Below the pieces are notes generated by a model. It had not been told where the DNA came from and did not search any database. It saw nothing but the letters and a program-made list of their open reading frames with translations. A stretch of DNA of 64,000 bases from assembly GCF_016097555.1 (NCBI RefSeq), contig NC_054712.1:54410213-54474212 (forward strand). The letters run 5' to 3'. Positions 13,338 to 63,085 of this stretch are shown piece after piece (positions within the stretch are counted from its first letter, which is position 1; each line of letters starts with the position of its first letter). Source of the stretch: Gigantopelta aegis (lineage: Eukaryota > Mollusca > Gastropoda > Neomphalida > Peltospiridae). A program made the translations under genes and the position numbers.

Positions 13338-16300
13338 GTATGTTTGTTGTGTTTTGAATACTTAGTTCGGGGAATATTTAGTTTTTAAAATCTTGATTGG
13401 GCGGGATGTAGCCCAGTGGGAAAATGCTCGCTTGATGCGCGGTCGGTCTAGGATCGATCCCCGTCAGTGGGCCTATTGGGCTATTTCTCACTCTAGCCAG
13501 TGCACCACAACTGGTGTATCAAAGACACTGGTATGTGCTATCCTGTCTGTGGGATGGTGCATATAAAAGACCCCTTGCTACTAATGGACAAAATGTAGCA
13601 GGTTTCATCTCTGTGACTTAAAATGACCATACGTTTGACATCCAATAGCCAATTAATAAATCAATGTGCTCTAGTGGTATCGTTAAACAAAACAAACTTT
13701 AAAAAAAAAAATATCTTGATTAACAATATTTCTCATCAGTTGAAAATTGATTAGCAACTACTGTTTTAAAATGTTTACAAATTGTATAGCAATGTCTCAA
13801 ACTTGTGTAGCGATTTGCAACGCAAACTGAAAAATGTTTTCCCTGTACATCCGCAACATGAGACCTCAAAGCTTATATACATATTTAGTACATATTTTGA
13901 TCTCGAGATTACAGTAATTATAATTAAAAGAAGGAATTTATTTTTAAAAAGTGCTACAGCGCAAATTTCAGTAATTATAATTAAAAGAAGGAATTTATTT
14001 TTAAAAAGTGCTACAGCGCAAATTTTCCAAAAAGCTTCTAACAGTCGTATATTTAAAGTTCAGTAGATGATTTATCTTAATTTGTGAATGGGTGATGGGG
14101 TGGCACGAAAAAATAAATGTGTGAATTTTGGTCATTTTGGCATACCAGGGCCAAAAAGAGGAAAATGAAGCAAATTAAAACAAATCATCTCTACTTATAG
14201 AAATGCTATAACCAATGTAACAGTCGTGAATTTCATCATTGTTGAACCCCTTATTGTGCATTGTGAGGGATTGAAGTTGACTAGAATTGTATTTTTAAAA
14301 CTAATTTATTCACAGCTCAGTGTTTTCGCTGGGTGAAAATTAAAGGAGGGCGGCCGGTCGGCACCACACCCTTCGAAAAAACAAACAACCCACCAATAAA
14401 CGAAAAGCAAAAAAAAAAAAAAAGGGGGGGGGGGGGGGGGGGGGTGGAGTAGTTTGGTTATCATATTGTTGTGTGTTGGTAGACTTTGAGAAAAGGCATA
14501 CTCGTCTTTTAATTGAACCGAGGATGATATCGGTCTGACATTCACGGGCAGTTCCGGTTTTGCTGGACCGATCGAAATTTTAATAATATTATTTTTAATA
14601 AAGATTTCAAGATATACGAAAAACAATAAAGATGTTTGTAAAGTGATCTCCTAATGTCAGATACATTTTTGTTATTTCCATCTTCATCGAATGAATCGAT
14701 CGCTGTGATAAAATATTATCGCCAGCAGTTTCGTTTTTGTAAAGGCGGTGTATATATTATTTGGCACTCAAGATAAATGATTTTAATGATAAACACTACC
14801 ACTTCCGTTGTTTTTATAAGCGTTCATAGCCCCTCAAAATGAAAAGTTTACAATATGTTATAAAGAACTGCTGAATAAACAGAATAACAGAAAGTAAAAT
14901 CATCAGTTTCAACCAATTATATCTGCAACTGAGGACAAAATATCAAACGATAGTTAGTGGAAACAAAAGACAGAATGACCGTTATGATCACGTGACAAAT
15001 TTGGCGCCAAATAAGAGGTTTTTTTTCAGTCGGAGATTGCCAAATCCGTAAAAAATTAAATGTTTTCATTGCTTACATAAAATACAACTTTTATTGTGTT
15101 TATCAAACATACAAATGGATACAGATATTGGACAAAATAGAGGCTGTTAAAAATACTGTTAAATTACTTACGGTAACTGTCGTAAATGTTTCGTCAATTG
15201 CTTTTTCGTACACAACACGGCTTGTTTCCTTTGATGTCCAGTATGCAGACTGATTGTTGTTTTTTGTGTGGAAAAAAGTGCATTTGGAAATAGCGGAGAT
15301 AGGTGCTGGGACATAAAGAGGGGCGCTCAAAAATAAAGGAGGGCGGGGAACGTGAAAGGAGTTCGGCAAAATGGAATAGCGGGGCGGGGCGCCCCACTTA
15401 AATGGAGCAGCGAGAACACTGCACAGCTGCAAGTTCATCTACAATTAAGTTCTGTGGGATGCTTCCTTGACTCGTAAAGAAACGGGGCGAGACATAGCCC
15501 AGTGGTAAAACACTTGCTTGATGAGTGGTTGGTTTGGGATCGATACCCGTCTGTGGTCCCATTGAGCTATTTTTCGCTCCAGCCAGTGCACAACGACTGG
15601 TACATCAAAGGCCGTGGTATGTGCTATCCTATCTGTGAGATGGTGCATATAAAATATTCCTTGCTGCTAATTGAAGAGAGTAGCCTATGAAGTGGTGACA
15701 GTGGGTTTCCTCCCTCAATATTTGTGTGGTTCTTCAACCATATGTCTGATGCCATATAGCCATAAATAAAATGTATTGAGTGCATCGTTTAATAAATCAT
15801 TTCCTTCCATAAAGAAATAAAATAATTTAGTTAATCATGAAGTAGGAAAATGGGTGTTGTTGTGTACATGATGGGTCTGGTAGTTGATGTCTACAATATA
15901 TACTCTGTGATCATTTAGCTTGCTCAATGGCCTCTTGTTTGTTTTTCAGCAAGCTGGTATTAACAGGAAATTGGCAAGAACAATAGGAATTTCTGTTGAT
16001 CACCGCCGCATGAACCGATCGATGGAATCATTGCAGCAGAATGTACAGCGGTTGAAAGAGTACAGATCTAAACTGATCCTCTTCCCAAGGAAAGCCAGCA
16101 AACCCAAGAAGGGTGATGCTAATGTAAGTCGTGGCCTTTTTCATTTGTTGGTACCCTATCTGTCCAACCAGAGGGGGACTATGGGTTTCATGTATCTCTG
16201 TCTTGTCCCCCGTCTGTCCAACATATAGTTTTCCATATGTTTTTTTTAACAATACCTTAATCTTCAAACTACTGGATTAATTTTTAACAAAAAACATGTT

Positions 16301-28369: not shown

Positions 28370-31300
28370 GTTCTCTTTTCAATAGTTTTTTCTTCTTCAA
28401 ATGTTGTACAAAAGTTATATCTATAGATGGCCTAAAGGCTAAATAAGTTATTTAATATTATAACAATATTAATAATAGTGTCATGTGCAAAAACTGGATG
28501 TTGTGTAGTCTGACAGCAGGTGTTTCAGACTAGATCTTGTGGCACTGTCATTTTAGCTCTGTACATCATAAATATATATTTTAGAAGCTTAATAGCCATT
28601 GATTCAAGGGTCAATTTACTTGTGTGGACTTGTTTAAAATACAAAACTAAAACAACAAATAAACAAAATAACATAACTTGGTTTGAGTGCCCTTTAATAG
28701 TTGATGGATCATAGTCAGTGCTCTACAAAGCAAGTAAAATACTCGCCATAGCGACTAAAAAAAATCCCTGGCGTCTAAAAAATAAAATCACATTCGTCAG
28801 TAGGCGACTGTCCAATAATTTTACTATAATCTGTAAACAAAACTGGACATCGGAAAACACAGTGGACCTGTAGCAATTTATCTTCTATAAAACTTGTTTT
28901 CTATTGGTCATTTGTTTGAAAAAGAAAAGTTTGAGACATGTTATATCAGACTGAATAACGATTTTCTAGTATTCAATAGTAAACATGTTAAGGGAGGTAA
29001 TACTTAGTTATGATGTTATCTCCCTTAACTTGAATCTTTACATGTCTGTTTGAAACTCAAACGTTAATTATTTTAAATGTCGACTTATATATGTGTTATG
29101 CTGTGCTCCAATCGTCTCGTGCTTATCGCGACAATGGGTCTCTCCACGATAACGACTTCTCCAGTCGTGAATGTCGTTTTAATGACGTCGGAAGTCATGT
29201 TCACCAGTGCAGGATGAAAACATGTTTCTATTTTTATGACTCTACTTTAAAGACACAACTATTTACAAAATAGTATTTATGGATTTACAAGGAAGTATGT
29301 GACGAAAATAAATATTATTTAAACCAAAATGTAAGGTAACCGATTGGTAGCTACTAGTAACATGGTAGATATTATCACAATGCTTTTATTTAACTTTTTT
29401 TGAGTACTGCAATTTAAATGCATATCTTAGCAGTGCCATTAAAATATTAATTTTGTTTAATAAAATTATTGGGTACAGAGTTTGCTAATGATAGTTAATA
29501 GTCGTTCACTGTTTTAGTGGAACCGGACACAAACAGTTGTAATTACTATAATTACTATTTAACAACTAAGAATTACCCTTTCACGAGTTCATTCATAACA
29601 ATTACGACATTAGTAATGTGCCGTAAAATGGCACTAAAAGCACATGGTTTATATATTAGCTGGCTACTAAATGTAAGTGGCTGGCGACGAAAATATTATA
29701 CTTTACTGACCAGGGAAGAGTAAATTTGAACTTGCTTCGTAGAGCACTGATAGTCATTTCGTACAATCCATTTCATACCATACTGCCTGGTCATTTCATA
29801 CGCTAGGTAGTACCCTAGTCATTTTGGAATGTTGGTCAATTTGCCCCAAAACCATCTCACCCCTACCAACTCACCCCAGCATTTGGTCAACTCGCACCAA
29901 ACTTTACTGTCCGTAAATAATTGTGACAAAATTAAAAATGGACATCTACAACTTTGGAGTCCTTATGGGCGAGTACCAGTATATAAATTATATACCAAGC
30001 AAATGGATCATATCATACAAGCAGTTTTACTGCATTTTTGCCACAAAGATACAATTAATTTTTTTAAACTTTATTTTGACAGTTGGAAATTCAGAACACA
30101 TCATTTCCATTTATCTGAGTTGGCCAGACCCTCAATTGGTATTTACTACTAACTGCCAACTTCTACTGATTGCCACCTACGTCAGTCATGTAGCAATGTC
30201 CTGATAATTAATATAGCTGTCAAAAACAATGAACCAACATAATGGACCAAAAAAATATTTTTTATTTATTAGGCCTTCTTTTAAAAAATTTAACTTGTTT
30301 CTTTTTTGTTAACAGTTACAGTTTGCAAGTAGTCGCACATGCACACTCACACACACACACAATGACCAAAACAGTATGGTGTTTTCAGACGTAGATTTCA
30401 TATTTGTTAATTCACAAAATTAAATGGTTTTGTAAAGTAAAAGAAATATAAATGAAAAAAAGTCAGTTGCAGGTGATGTTTGAAATGTAATGTTATTTTG
30501 TAAAAGACACTACCGGGGTGATATCACATCTGACATTACACCTTTTTTTTTAATGGTACAAAATGACTTTCAGTTATAGTACAAAATGACCAAAGTACGG
30601 AATGACTAGGGTAGGAAATGACTTTTTGTAATTGTACAAAATGACCAGGGTACGAAATTATTAAATTAGGCATGAACTGACAATGATACAAAATGAACAT
30701 GGTACAAATTGACTAGCAGCCAGTCCGATACATCTGCCATCAAACTGAATTTGTCAAATTATTTGTTACTTCTTTTACTCTCATCGGGGTATGCACCAAA
30801 AAAAATCTGTGTGCATCGGCAAATGTAAAAGATGAACATAAAAGAAATAACAGACAATCCTTATATTATTAAATTTGAATCATGCTTGCTAATAAGGAAA
30901 AATATCCGCCCGGTCCCCCCCTCCCCTAACCCTAACCTTAACCCCAACCCCAACCCCAACCCCAACCCCAACCCTAACCCTAACCCCTAACCCTAACTAA
31001 AAATAATAATGGAGGGGACCGGGCAGATATTATACCACTAATAATAACACTCAAACTTCACACATTATTTTGCATTATTTTGAATTATGTTTTGTCCATA
31101 AACAATAATGCTCAGTAAGACAACTTACCCATATAATTTATAAATTTGACGTTCCCTGATAACATAATTTTTACATTCATCAAGAATTGAACGAACTCCT
31201 GTTGCTACGTCTGGACCAATGGGATCATGAATTTATGTGGTACTGAATGTAACGGCACATGTATCAGACTACCTCTAACCTTACCCTGTTTATTTGTCCT

Positions 31301-41842: not shown

Positions 41843-44064
41843 TCTGTAATCAGTAGTGTGAGTACCCTTACATGTGCTTTATAATGCATGGCATGATCAG
41901 CTGATAATAGTAAATTACAGTGAAACCTCTCAAAACTGGACCCTCTGTAATCAGTATTGTGAGTACCCTTACATGTGCTTTATAATGCATGGCATGATCA
42001 GCTGATAATACTAAATTACAGTGAAACCTCTCAAAACTGGACCCTCTGTAATCAGTAGTGTGAGTACCCTTACATGTGCTTTATAATGCATGGCATGATC
42101 AGCTGATAATAGTAAATTACAGTGAAACCTCTCAAAACTGGACCCTCTGTAATCAGTAGTGTGAGTACCCTTACATGTGCTTTATAATGCATGGCATGAT
42201 CAGCTGATAATAGTAAATTACAGTGAAACCTCTCAAAACTGGACCCTCTGTAATCAGTAGTGTGAGTACCCTTACATGTGCTTTATAATGCATGGCATGA
42301 TCAGCTGATAATAGTAAATTACAGTGAAACCTCTCAAAACTGGACCCTCTGTAATCAGTATTGTGAGTACCCTTACATGTGCTTTATAATGCATGGCATG
42401 ATCAGCTGATAATAGTAAATTACAGTGAAACCTCTCAAAACTGGACCCTCTGTAATCAGTAGTGTGAGTACCCTTACATGTGCTTTATAATGCATGGCAT
42501 GATCAGCTGATAATAGTAAATTACAGTGAAACCTCTCAAAACTGGACCCTCTGTAATCAGTATTGTGAGTACCCTTACATGTGCTTTATAATGCATGGCA
42601 TGATCAGCTGATAATAGTAAATTACAGTGAAACCTCTCAAAACTGGACCCTCTGTAATCAGTATTGTGAGTACCCTTACATGTGCTTTATAATGCATGGC
42701 ATGATCAGCTGATAATAGTAAATTACAGTGAAACCTCTCAAAACTGGACCCTCTGTAATCAGTAGTGTGAGTACCCTTACATGTGCTTTATAATGCATGG
42801 CATGATCAGCTGATAATAGTAAATTACAGTGAAACCTCTCAAAACTGGACCCTCTGTAATCAGTATTGTGAGTACCCTTACATGTGCTTTATAATGCATG
42901 GCATGATCAGCTGATAATACTAAATTACAGTGAAACCTCTCAAAACTGGACCCTCTGTAATCAGTAGTGTGAGTACCCTTACATGTGCTTTATAATGCAT
43001 GGCATGATCAGCTGATAATACTAAATTACAGTGAAACCTCTCAAAACTGGACCCTCTGTAATCAGTATTGTGAGTACCCTTACATGTGCTTTATAATGCA
43101 TGGCATGATCAGCTGATAATACTAAATTACAGTGAAACCTCTCAAAACTGGACCCTCTGTAATCAGTATTGTGAGTACCCTTACATGTGCTTTATAATGC
43201 ATGGCATGATCAGCTGATAATACTAAATTACAGTGAAACCTCTCAAAACTGGACCCTCTGTAATCAGTATTGTGAGTACCCTTACATGTGCTTTATAATG
43301 CATGGCATGATCAGCTGATAATACTAAATTACAGTGAAACCTCTCAAAACTGGACCCTCTGTAATCAGTAGTGTGAGTACCCTTACATGTGCTTTATAAT
43401 GCATGGCATGATCAGCTGATAATAGTAAATTACAGTGAAACCTCTCAAAACTGGACCCTCTGTAATCAGTATTGTGAGTACCCTTACATGTGCTTTATAA
43501 TGCATGGCATGATCAGCTGATAATACTAAATTACAGTGAAACCTCTCAAAACTGGACCCTCTGTAATCAGTATTGTGAGTACCCTTACATGTGCTTTATA
43601 ATGCATGGCATGATCAGCTGATAATAATAAATTACAGTGAAACCTCTCAAAACTGGACCCTCTGTAATCAGTAGTGTGAGTACCCTTACATGTGCTTTAT
43701 AATGCATGGCATGATCAGCTGATAATAGTAAATTACAGTGAAACCTCTCAAAACTGGACCCTCTGTAATCAGTATTGTGAGTACCCTTACATGTGCTTTA
43801 TAATGCATGGCATGATCAGCTGATAATACTAAATTACAGTGAAACCTCTCAAAACTGGACCCTCTGTAATCAGTATTGTGAGTACCCTTACATGTGCTTT
43901 ATAATGCATGGCATGATCAGCTGATAATAATAAATTACAGTGAAACCTCTCAAAACTGGACCCTCTGTAATCAGTAGTGTGAGTACCCTTACATGTGCTT
44001 TATAATGCATGGCATGATCAGCTGATAATAATAAATTACAGTGAAACCTCTCAAAACTGGACCC
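41843..44064. repeat. 101-bp satellite, 22 exact-length units, seeded by a MITE end
   Basis: The unit runs from one TCTGTAA to the next. About 66 bp of local flank (ATCAGTAGTGTGAGTACCCT ... GCTGATAATAGTAAAT) is followed by the first 33 or so bp of the mariner-type MITE (TACAGTGAAACCTCTCAAAA, CTGGACCCTCTGTA). The distance 41843 to 44065 is 2222 bp, exactly 22 x 101. Units differ almost only at two sites: AGTAGTG or AGTATTG, and AATAG, AATAC or AATAA before TAAAT. Confidence 0.96.
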
Positions 44065-44214
44065 TCTGTAAACCGGAATTCCCCCAAAACCGGACATTTT
44101 TCATGGTCCATTTTTCAAAACCAGTACAGAACTTAACCTCTCTAAACTGGATACCTCTTATAACCAGGCATTTTACTAGGTCCCTTGGGTGTCCGGTTTA
44201 GAGGGGTTTCACTG
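44039..44214. mobile_element. Tc1/mariner-type MITE, 176 bp, at the end of the satellite
   Basis: CAGTGAAACCTCTCAAAACT at the left faces GTTTAGAGGGGTTTCACTG at the right, with TA on both sides (44037-44038 and 44215-44216). It is the only complete copy. The satellite upstream repeats its left end. Confidence 0.85.
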
Positions 44215-44637
44215 TATATGCAAATGCACATGTATGAAATCTACTCAACGTATTTACCTCAATGAATTTTATGAACTAGTATATCTCAGTATATAGACAC
44301 CACCTGTCTATTAAAGCCATATTCAATAATTTTTATAAGTTTTACTGTAAACACCATTAACAACTTCATACTCAAAGCATTTTTATTTTGTGTTGAGTAT
44401 ATATTTATTGTATATGATGAGTTCATTAAGAAATTCTCATGTTAAATACAAAACATTCTATTTATGTGAGTGGTCAGTTTTGACAGTTTTGGCTGTAAAT
44501 AACAACAACAAATTTACACACACAGATATTTTTGTTGTGCGTTGGATATACATATTATATGTTATGAGTCTATTAAGACATTCTAATACATGTATATATA
44601 GACAAAAATCCTATTTACATGAGTGACTCTTGTTGAC

Positions 44638-53091: not shown

Positions 53092-54183
53092 TTTTTTGGG
53101 AAATCTTCACAAACTAATTATTGAGAGATATTTTGGAATTTTTTCTCTTCATTGTTTTCATGCATGTTGGTCATATTAAATTTCTCCTTTGTACAGAGCA
53201 TTAGATTTTAGTCATCCACAGAATTAATATGCAAACACACAGTAATGAGTAATTTTGCATAATTTACAGAAAACCATAATGCATGCACATTAAAAGTTTC
53301 AAAAATAGACATTTTTATTGCAGTGGTTGCATGCATGTCTGCTTTTAATGTGGGAGTTGGCTTGTAAAAGACATTAATATTCAAGGTCTTCATTCTTGTA
53401 AACAAATTCAGATTTAATGTATTCTTCAGCTGTGTTAGTTTTCTATGAATAACTTTCACTTAATAGACTGAAGGGAAAAATATCCAGATGGCTCTGTCAT
53501 TGGTGTCCTGTGTCAGTTACATTGTCAGTCTCTCGTTACATTGTCAGTCTCTCATTGGTGTCCTGTGTCCATTACATTATCAGTCTATCATTACATTGTC
53601 AGTCTCTCATTGGTGTCCTGTGTCCGTTACATTGTCAGTTTCTCGTAACATTGTCAGTCTCTCATTACATTGTAAGTCCCTCATTACATTGTCAGTCTCA
53701 TATTACATTGTCAGTCTATCGTTACATTGTCAGTCTCTCATTACATTGTCAGTCTCTCATTGGTGTCCTGTGTCCATTACATTGTCAGTCTCTCGTTACA
53801 TTGTCAGTCTCTCGTTACATTGTCAGTCTCTCATTACATTGTCAGTCTCTCGTTACATTGTCAGTCTCTTATTGGTGTCCTGTGTCCATTACATTGTCAG
53901 TCTCTTATTACATTGTAAGTCCCTCATTACATTGTCAGTCTATCGTTACATTGTCAGTCTCTTATTACATTGTCAGTCTCTCATTGGTGTCCTGTGTCCA
54001 TTACATTATCAGTCTATCATTACATTGTCAGTCTCTTGTTGGTGTCCTGTGTCCATTACATTGTCAGTCTCTCGTAACATTGTCAGTCTCTCATTACATT
54101 GTCAGTCTCTCATTGGTGTCCTGTGTCCATTACATTATCAGTCTATCATTACATTGTCAGTCTCTTGTTGGTGTCCTGTGTCC
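53092..54183. repeat. 1.09-kb segment, copy A of a tandem duplication (flank plus minisatellite)
   Basis: The unique-looking flank starting TTTTTTTGGGAAATCTTCAC (53092-53510) runs into minisatellite. The same flank begins again at 54184, giving a 1092-bp repeat distance. Confidence 0.85.
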
Positions 54184-56385
54184 ATTTTTTTGGGAAATCT
54201 TCACAAACTAATTATTGAGAGATATTTTGGAATTTTTTCTCTTCATTGTTTTCATGCATGTTGGTCATATTAAATTTCTCCTTTGTACAGAGCATTAGAT
54301 TTTAGTCATCCACAGAATTAATATGCAAACTCTCAGTTGAGTAATTTTGTACAGAAAACCCATGCACATTGTCCATTACATTGTCAGTCTGCTTTTAATG
54401 TGGGAGTTCTTGTACATTAATGTCAAGGTCTTCATTCTCGTTACATTGATTTCAGTCTCTTCAGCTGTGTTAGTCTATGAATAACTGTCACATGAAGGGA
54501 AAAATACATTGTCAGTCCTGTGTCAGTTACATTGTCAGTCTCTCGTTACATTGTCAGTCTCTCATTGGTGTCCTGTGTCCATTACATTATCAGTCTATCA
54601 TTACATTGTCAGTCTCTCATTGGTGTCCTGTGTCCGTTACATTGTCAGTTTCTCGTAACATTGTCAGTCTCTCATTACATTGTAAGTCCCTCATTACATT
54701 GTCAGTCTCATATTACATTGTCAGTCTATCGTTACATTGTCAGTCTCTCATTACATTGTCAGTCTCTCAGTCCTGTGTCCCTACATTGTCAGTCTCTCGT
54801 TACATTGTCAGTCTCTCGTACATTGTCAGTCTCTCATTACATTGTCCTCTCTCGTTACATTGTCAGTCTCTTATTGGTGTCCTGTGTCCATTACATTGTC
54901 AGTCTCTTATTACATTGTCATTCATTGTCAGTCTATCGTTACATTGTCAGTCTCTTATTACATTGTCAGTCTCTCATTGGTGTCCTGTGTCCATTACATT
55001 ATCAGTCTATCATTACATTGTCAGTCTCTTGTTGGTGTCCTGTGTCCATTACATTGTCAGTCTCTCGTAACATTGTCAGTCTCTCATTACATTGTCAGTC
55101 TCTCATTGGTGTCCTGTGTCCATTACATTATCAGTCTATCATTACATTGTCAGTCTCTTGTTGGTGTCCTGTGTCCATTACATTGTCAGTCTCTCATTAC
55201 ATTGTAAGTCTCTCATTACATTGTCAGTCTCTCATTACATTGTCAGTCTCTCATTGGTGTCCTGTGTCCATTACATTGTCAGTCTCTCATTACATTGTCA
55301 GTCTCTCGTTACATTGTCAGTCTCTCGTTGTTGTCCTGTGTCCATTACATTGTCAGTCTCTCATTTACATTGTAAGTCCCTCATTACATTGTAAGTCCCT
55401 CATTAGATTGTCAACATTGTCAGTCTCTCGTTACATTGTCAGTCTCTCATTGGTGTCCTCTGTCCATTACATTGTCAGTCTCTCATTACATTGTCAGTCT
55501 CTCATTACATTGTCAGTCTCTCATTGGTGTCCTGTGTCCATTACATTATCAGTCTATCATTACATTGTCAGTCTCTTGTTGGTGTCCTATGTCCATTACA
55601 TTGTCAGTCTCTCATAACATTGTCAGTCTCTCATTACATTGTCAGTCTCTCATTGGTGTCCTGTGTCCATTACATTGTCAGTCTCTTGTTGGTGTCCTGT
55701 GTCCATTACATTGTCAGTCTCTCATTACATTGTCAGTCTCTCATTACATTATCACTCTCTCATTGGTGTCCTGTGTCCATTACATTGTCAGTCTCTCATT
55801 ACATTGTAAGTCTCTCGTTGGTGTCCTGTGTCCATTACATTGTCAGTCTCTCATTACATTGTAAGTCCCTCATTACATTGTAAGTCCCTCATTACATTGT
55901 AAGTCCCTCATTACATTGTCAGTCTTTCATTACATTGTCAGTCTCTCATTGGTGTCCTGTGTCCATTACATTGTCAGTCTCTCGTTACATTGTCAGTCCC
56001 TCATTACATTGTCAGTCTCGTTACATTGTCAGTCTCTCATTACATTGTCTGTCTCTCGTTATATTGTCAGTCCCTCATTACATTGTCAGTCTCGTTACAT
56101 TGTCAGTCTCTCATTACATTGTCAGTCTTTCATTACATTGTCAGTCTATCGTTGGTGTCCTGTGTCCATTACATTGTCAGTCTCTCATTACATTGTCAGT
56201 CTCTCATTGGTGTCCTGTGTCCATTACATTGTCAGTCTCTCGTTACATTGTCAGTCCCTCATTACATTGTCAGTCTCGTTACATTGTCAGTCTCTCATTA
56301 CATTGTCTGTCTCTCGTTATATTGTCAGTCTCTCGTTACATTGTCAGTCTCTCATTGGTGTCCTCTCTCGATTCTACAATGTTAA
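53510..56385. repeat. 19-bp/17-bp minisatellite, about 2.9 kb
   Basis: ATTACATTGTCAGTCTCTC (19 bp) alternates with ATTGGTGTCCTGTGTCC (17 bp). The interruption at 54184-54500 is the second copy of the left flank. Long open frames in all three plus frames are a by-product, since the units carry no stop in these registers. No gene should be annotated here. Confidence 0.97.
54184..54500. repeat. Copy B of the duplicated flank, altered
   Basis: The first 150 bp match 53092-53240 almost exactly. The remainder is shortened, and several stretches are replaced by minisatellite words (ACATTGTCCATTACATTGTC, TCTCGTTACATTG) where copy A has unique text. Confidence 0.85.
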
Positions 56386-62329: not shown

Positions 62330-63085
62330 ATGAAAATAGCATGTTTCCTCTGTTAGAATTACCAAATGTTTGACCTCCATTACTGATGATTAATTAATCA
62401 ATGTGTTGTAGTGGTATTGTTAAATAAAACACTTTTTTCCCCTCTATTAGACTGTTAAAATTACCAAATGTTTGACGGCCATAGTCGATGATTAATTAAT
62501 CAATGTGCTTTAATGGTGTCAAATAAAACAAACTTTTTCCTCCCTCTGTTAAACTATATGTCAACATTTTCAAATGTTTGACATCCAATAAGATCTGATG
62601 ATTAATTAATCAATGTGCTCTAGTTGTGTCATTAAATAAAACAAACTTTTTCCTCCCTCTGTTAAACTATATGTCAACATTTTCAAATGTTTGACATCCA
62701 ATAAGATCTGATGATTAATTAATCAATGTGCTCTAGTTGTGTCATTAAATAAAGCAAACTTTTTTCCCCCTCTGTTAAACTATATGTCAAAATTGCTAAA
62801 TGTTTGACATCTAATAGCTGATGATTAATAAATCAATGTGCTTTAATGGTGTCGTTAAATAAAACCTTTTTTTTCCCTCTGTTAATCTATATGTCAAAAT
62901 TGCCAAATGTTTGACATTCAATATCTGATGATTAATAAAACAATGTGTTCTAGAGGTGTCGTTAAATATAACACACTTTTGTCCCCTCTATATGTCAAAA
63001 TTGCAAAATGTTTGACATTCAGTATCTGATGATGAATAAAACAATGTGTTCTAGAGGTGTCATTACACAAAAAAATACTTTTCAA
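62330..63085 (+). repeat. Tandem array of SINE X-tails, seven units of 101-113 bp
   Basis: GATGATTAATTAATCAATGT recurs at 62241 (parent SINE), then 62385, 62487, 62597, 62710, 62820, 62927 and 63028. Each has upstream CAAATGTTTGACATCCAATA and downstream GTGTCATTAAATAAAACAAA. No head or body accompanies the units. Confidence 0.93.

Follow-up and report, generated by a model that had tools for sequence, protein, structure and literature searches.

An origin of minisatellites by way of flanking direct repeats of 5-10 bp was proposed by Haber and Louis (1998; as cited in PMC3389668 and PMC4232551). Among human transposon-derived tandem repeats, 300 of 7,276 are reported to have direct repeats of 5-20 bp at their flanks, in most cases 7 bp long, and in 136 further ones part of an Alu element is duplicated beside a full or nearly full Alu (PMC3389668). 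Satellites derived from MITEs include Xstir and miDNA4 of Xenopus and the repeats linked to Pearl and CvA in bivalves (PMC9659126, PMC12628747). The monomers of such satellites are described as lying inside the element or as derived from it (PMC9659126, PMC12628747, PMC8268682), and microhomology has been named as a possible cause (PMC9659126, PMC12628747).

The array analyzed here lies in a window of 64,000 nucleotides (the whole stretch of DNA that was studied, C14:54410213-54474212) of the Gigantopelta aegis genome, whose assembly comprises 1.15 Gb in 5,216 contigs. Like Xstir, miDNA4 and the Pearl- and CvA-linked repeats as described in these sources, it is tied to a MITE, but its monomer straddles the edge of the element and is confined to one locus, whereas theirs lie in the element or derive from it. 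Two thirds of its unit consist of flanking sequence, unlike the human transposon-derived repeats as reported in PMC3389668. No array straddling a MITE edge was found in the literature searched by title and abstract, which is weak evidence of absence. With the Haber-Louis route as cited, the array shares a duplication by slippage or unequal exchange between short direct repeats that leaves a number of whole units plus an extra word, and it has both a boundary repeat within the range of 5-10 bp and whole units followed by the word. It differs in that a MITE supplies one of the two words; the MITE family thus reveals half of the ancestral sequence. The slippage model based on separated short repeats likewise concerns minisatellite birth by slippage but, as outlined in its source, predicts an incomplete terminal unit, whereas the excess observed here is exactly the shared word.

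By itself the locus is ordinary, and the array illustrates a known process clearly, as one of several in this genome. The birth route of arrays is usually erased; here other MITE copies give independent knowledge of the ancestral half, and no outgroup is needed to score the birth words. A genome with more than one tenth of its sampled sequence in tandem arrays could allow the short-direct-repeat model to be tested quantitatively.

Anatomy of the array and of the MITE that closes it

TRF reported the array with a period of 101, 22.1 copies, 98% matches and no indels (Table 1). As counted from the assembly, the periodic stretch measures 2229 bp, that is 22 x 101 + 7, and the 7 extra bases read TCTGTAA. 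A reading of the sequence alone had described the array as exactly 22 x 101 bp; its 22 units of 101 bp are borne out by TRF and the period count, while the extra 7 bp had been missed. With the common heptamer assigned to the MITE, the flank contributes 68 bp to each period and the MITE 33 bp, close to the roughly 66 and 33 bp given in that reading, and the first 33 bp of the MITE are present in 21 more identical copies within the array. Both copies of the proposed junction word TCTGTAA could be read, one ahead of the first unit of the array (GCATCTGTAATCAG) and the other at bases 27-33 of the intact MITE (CCCTCTGTAAACCGG). The right end of the array falls exactly on the MITE-internal heptamer with an excess of 7 bp; breakpoints without homology would produce an apparent excess of at least 7 by chance with a probability of about 6e-4. 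Variation among the 22 units is restricted to position 14 (G/T) and position 68 (G/C/A). The bases at these two positions read GG TC GG GG GG TG GG TG TG GG TC in units 1-11 and GC TC TC TC GG TC TA GG TC TA GA in units 12-22, and all four combinations of G/T at position 14 with G/C at position 68 are present.

Table 1. Features of the array and of the adjoining MITE (positions in the window)
Feature	Position	Strand	Basis or remark
Tandem array, 22 x 101 bp + 7 bp	41843..44071	+	TRF, period analysis
TCTGTAA, flank copy	41843..41849	+	putative left breakpoint at the founding event
Local flank segment, first copy	41843..41917	+	75 bp including the heptamer, TA at its end; in its own genome at this locus only
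MITE left end, first duplicated copy, 33 bp	41918..41950	+	
Three-unit block (GG TC TA), twice in succession	43358..43963	+	trace of a later whole-unit duplication
TA, left target-site duplication of the intact MITE	44037..44038	.	TA also precedes the MITE end in the units
Intact MITE, 176 bp	44039..44214	+	imperfect 24-bp inverted ends CAGTGAAACC...
TCTGTAA, MITE copy	44065..44071	+	putative right breakpoint at the founding event
TA, right target-site duplication	44215..44216	.	

To place the unit within its own genome, a 100-bp flank query (25 bp of pre-array sequence and 75 bp of the unit) was searched and gave 22 matches at E <=0.001, all of them inside this array. When two units served as the query, further matches of about 37-52 bases appeared on other chromosomes, with the MITE part at their centre. 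In the 1.15-Gb assembly the flank part of the 101-bp unit was not found outside this locus, and the unit does not behave as one monomer in arrays at many loci, as a dispersed satellite would. The search for the flank elsewhere, which the sequence-only reading had suggested, thus returned nothing resembling the widespread MITE-free unit that it had named as its rival. Its term satellite is too generous for one single-locus array of 2.2 kb, for which minisatellite-like array is nearer.

The array is closed, as proposed, by a TA-flanked MITE of 176 bp. Its inverted ends of 24 bp are 87.5% identical and TA stands on both sides; together with its short length and high copy number it has the inverted ends and TA duplication of a TA-targeting MITE. 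TA followed by the 14-base MITE end gave 4,433 exact matches genome-wide, compared with 2 for the reversed control. Ends of the family were sampled at 52 fetched loci (L028-L079, 66 ends), 12 of which (L028-L039) had been picked by similarity, and TA precedes 62 of the 66. An exact TCTGTAA stands at the expected place in 18 of 35 left-type ends, with 7 of 24 at the C1 loci taken in list order versus 11 of 11 at the similarity-picked loci. In both sets alike it is part of the majority left-end word, and for this reason the MITE half of the common heptamer is probably older than the array. Kinship of the MITE with pogo/Tigger is only hinted at by a 1.5-kb relative with the same ends (L059), in which a 103-aa ORF matches CENP-B_N weakly, at 18.9 bits against a Pfam cutoff of 21.2; the noise level is illustrated by a second, unrelated sub-cutoff match to Colicin at 16.6 bits. 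A 33-bp repeat inside the MITE follows 4 of the 52 exact ends at the 40 list-order C1 loci, in up to 32 copies. The MITE left part with this internal tandem repeat, in about 2.6 to 32 copies, is seen at L046 (1542-2604), L045, L049 and L070.

Arrays at other MITE ends and their lengths

Genome-wide, direct repeats of MITE ends at gaps of 27-87 gave 355 matches and the reversed control none. Left-type MITE-end repeats gave 93 matches, and 82 were obtained at gaps of 88-148. The gap of the window array is 87 bases. The 27-87 patterns cover it only when a particular fixed base is A or T, and the second set starts at 88; the window array is in neither complete left-type listing. The terminal bases of the left end were found tandemly repeated in 13 unit families at 17 places, the window included, these counts being lower bounds and the families on C7, C9 and C12 being assigned to the MITE family by terminal bases alone. 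The places (in Mb) are C2:15.57, C2:46.07, C4:104.56 and C4:105.64, C6:99.84, C7:12.32, C9:72.03, C10:49.98, C11:0.24, C12:27.92, C12:28.02, C1878 and C3710 (one family), C13:38.96, C14:3.44, C14:54.45 (the window) and C15:2.94. Right-type cases among the matches listed include C2:0.78 and C3:63.03/63.11, and L052 from the C1 sample is a further one. The array continues straight into the MITE interior in the window and at 11 loci (L009, L020-L024, L080, L082-L084 and L089); at L090 it does not.

Two of these places deserve separate description. A very homogeneous 91-bp array of more than 5 kb lies on the MITE right end at C3:63107688-63113360, and the same unit forms another array 78 kb off in the opposite orientation (C3:63028457-63029479). 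The locus L009 (1427-1805; C2:46066926-46067304, minus strand) holds an edge-straddling array of 4 x 95 bp. Its flank part begins at an apparent exon end (AAG/GTAAAT, after a reading frame of 28 residues), and every unit therefore repeats a splice-donor-like word.

Eight junctions, read partly by eye, could be scored for the bases shared between flank and MITE, and gave 7, 5, 4, 3, 2, 1, 0 and 0. The highest value is that of the window, followed by L052 (5 bases, in a related right-type element), L083 (4 with one MITE mismatch allowed, 0 by the strict script), the C3 arrays (3, with the left edge taken from L086 and the right edge from L084, two distinct arrays that have their unit in common), L089 (2), L024 (1), and L009 and L082 (0 each). 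Outside this count stand L020 and L021 (no flank ahead of the first unit), L022 (truncated left edge and a unit almost all MITE), L023 (ambiguous, with readings from 0 to 5), L080 (N on the left side), L081 (a stretch without edges), L085 (the other end of the C3 array, closing in an A run), L090 (right edge outside the MITE interior), L025-L027 (simple-repeat units) and L087 and L088 (TRF array across the ends absent). Blunt joins are expected to share at least 3 bases in 6.2% of cases. At least 3 bp were shared at 4 of the 8 junctions (P 8e-4 under blunt joins), at 3 of 8 with the strict value for L083 (P 0.011) and at 4 of 7 without L089 (P 4e-4). Judged from these sequences, short homology at the birth of an array appears to be favoured but not required, because two of the eight readable junctions share 0 bp.

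The length signature of whole units plus a few bases was also looked for in 30 clean arrays from the window and from 40 MITE loci taken in list order from one end of C1. An excess of 0-12 bp over whole units was found in 16 of the 30 unfiltered arrays (8.2 expected), in 14 of the 25 without indels (7.3 expected) and in 12 of the 16 that have a period of at least 40 and lack indels (3.4 expected, P 4e-6). This last set is small and partly from one end of C1; the filter removed 14 of the 30 arrays for a period below 40 or for indels, and those remaining include the window and L052 arrays. Nine of the 12 small-excess arrays have at least 3 bp, for which blunt joins predict 6.2%. The calling of array ends affects the excess, and one array (13908-14025) has an excess of 4 by one method and 0 by another. 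A bias of TRF towards small excess was not detected in 300 planted arrays (48 found, 51.6 expected). The 7 bp of the window array are the largest excess among the 12 and follow the pattern of the sample. A flanking-repeat signature is carried by about 4% of the human set as reported in PMC3389668, compared with 12 of 16 in the small filtered sample here. The view that the birth of an array is rarely this legible, expressed in the sequence-only reading, is not supported here, as many clean arrays of a small sample carry a like signature.

Proposed origin and its alternatives

Insertion of the MITE, a 101-bp duplication between the two TCTGTAA words and subsequent growth by homologous exchange very probably account for the array. 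A TA-targeting MITE, perhaps of the pogo/Tigger type, would have inserted into single-copy DNA. The 101-bp segment from the TCTGTAA of the flank to the TCTGTAA of the MITE left end would then have been tandemly duplicated at the 7-bp direct repeat, for which replication slippage, unequal sister exchange and microhomology-mediated break repair are candidate routes. As far as sequence is concerned, slippage, unequal exchange and microhomology-mediated repair are inseparable. From two units on, homologous unequal exchange and conversion may have expanded the array to its 22 units and kept them nearly identical. The order of these events is derived from the anatomy of the array and its single-locus nature; the pre-array state, the enzymatic route and the mechanism of growth are inferred. 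Birth by duplication between the two heptamers followed by growth, as the earlier reading had it, fits the length of 22 x 101 + 7, the single-locus flank and the family heptamer.

It is unlikely that several units were instead born in one step, from a rolling-circle template or by repeated template switching in repair, without gradual growth. The near-identity of the 22 units, with two variable positions only, would agree with such an event. The four variant combinations and the repeated three-unit block, however, indicate exchange or conversion after birth; they would be compatible with a one-step origin that was followed by exchange.

A causal role of the MITE, with tandem duplication of its end and the flank triggered either by transposase nicks or breaks at that end or by hairpins formed from the inverted ends, is distinctly improbable. 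Arrays do recur at MITE ends, as the left-end families and the right-end cases demonstrate, and the sub-cutoff CENP-B_N match in L059 leaves room for a DNA-binding transposase of this kind. Against this, the readable breakpoints lie about 18 to 75 bp inside the element and thus away from the cut site, and other arrays of the sample carry a like length signature. MITE ends are also not enriched in arrays. The 40 list-order loci from one end of C1 amount to 126.5 kb, of which 12.4% is in arrays of period 30-160; an array crosses 1 of these 40 loci (2 of 52 ends) versus 13.6% of 100,914 background positions. MITE ends as array hot spots, and with them a promoting role of the MITE in the birth, are accordingly unsupported; a rate below background is itself unsurprising because the ends may be younger than their surroundings. 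Inverted words of 7 bp (CTGTAAT/ATTACAG) are found around the MITE edge. Hairpin-driven slippage was rejected, as the 101-bp unit folds no better than its shuffles (z -0.08). The MITE looks like a bystander in the birth of the array, and under the proposed insertion, duplication and growth it would most likely have lain across the breakpoint by chance in an array-rich genome.

An older 101-bp satellite into which the MITE inserted later, with the MITE end then spread by conversion, would explain the bare adjacency of array and MITE but is hardly tenable and was rejected: the flank part is confined to this array in its own genome, the MITE end is joined at TA in 22 of 22 units, and the array stops at the MITE-internal heptamer with its 7-bp excess.

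Possible dispersal and other repeats of the window

Two of the left-end arrays, L020 (C4:104.56 Mb) and L021 (C4:105.64 Mb), lie about 1.1 Mb apart, have a common 79-bp chimeric unit and are about 98% alike. Both start at most about 5 bases from the MITE end with no flank segment before them, and their surroundings are unrelated. Each array passes into a MITE copy, and the right parts of the two copies resemble each other less; TA precedes the outer CACAGTG of L020 but not that of L021. Of 1,458 candidates 40 were scored, and among these no further place closely matches the whole 79-bp unit; about a dozen places match it over more than 90 bases at 70-78%. This pattern would be accounted for if the array had transposed together with the MITE, or if MITE copies had undergone ectopic conversion with one another. 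It is possible, though doubtful, that edge-straddling arrays become mobile in this way, the array and the captured host flank moving inside a longer element; the outermost copy could act as a new terminus because every unit carries the MITE end. If arrays do move like this, two ordinary steps would suffice to make a dispersed satellite out of a local array.

TRF also reported further repeats in the window. An interstitial telomere-like repeat (CCCTAA x 12) is found at 30924-30997, and a degenerate 2.8-kb array with a period of about 19 bp (TTACATTGTCAGTCTCTCA) at 53517-56356. A 113-bp tandem array at 62357-63082 resembles repeated SINE tails.
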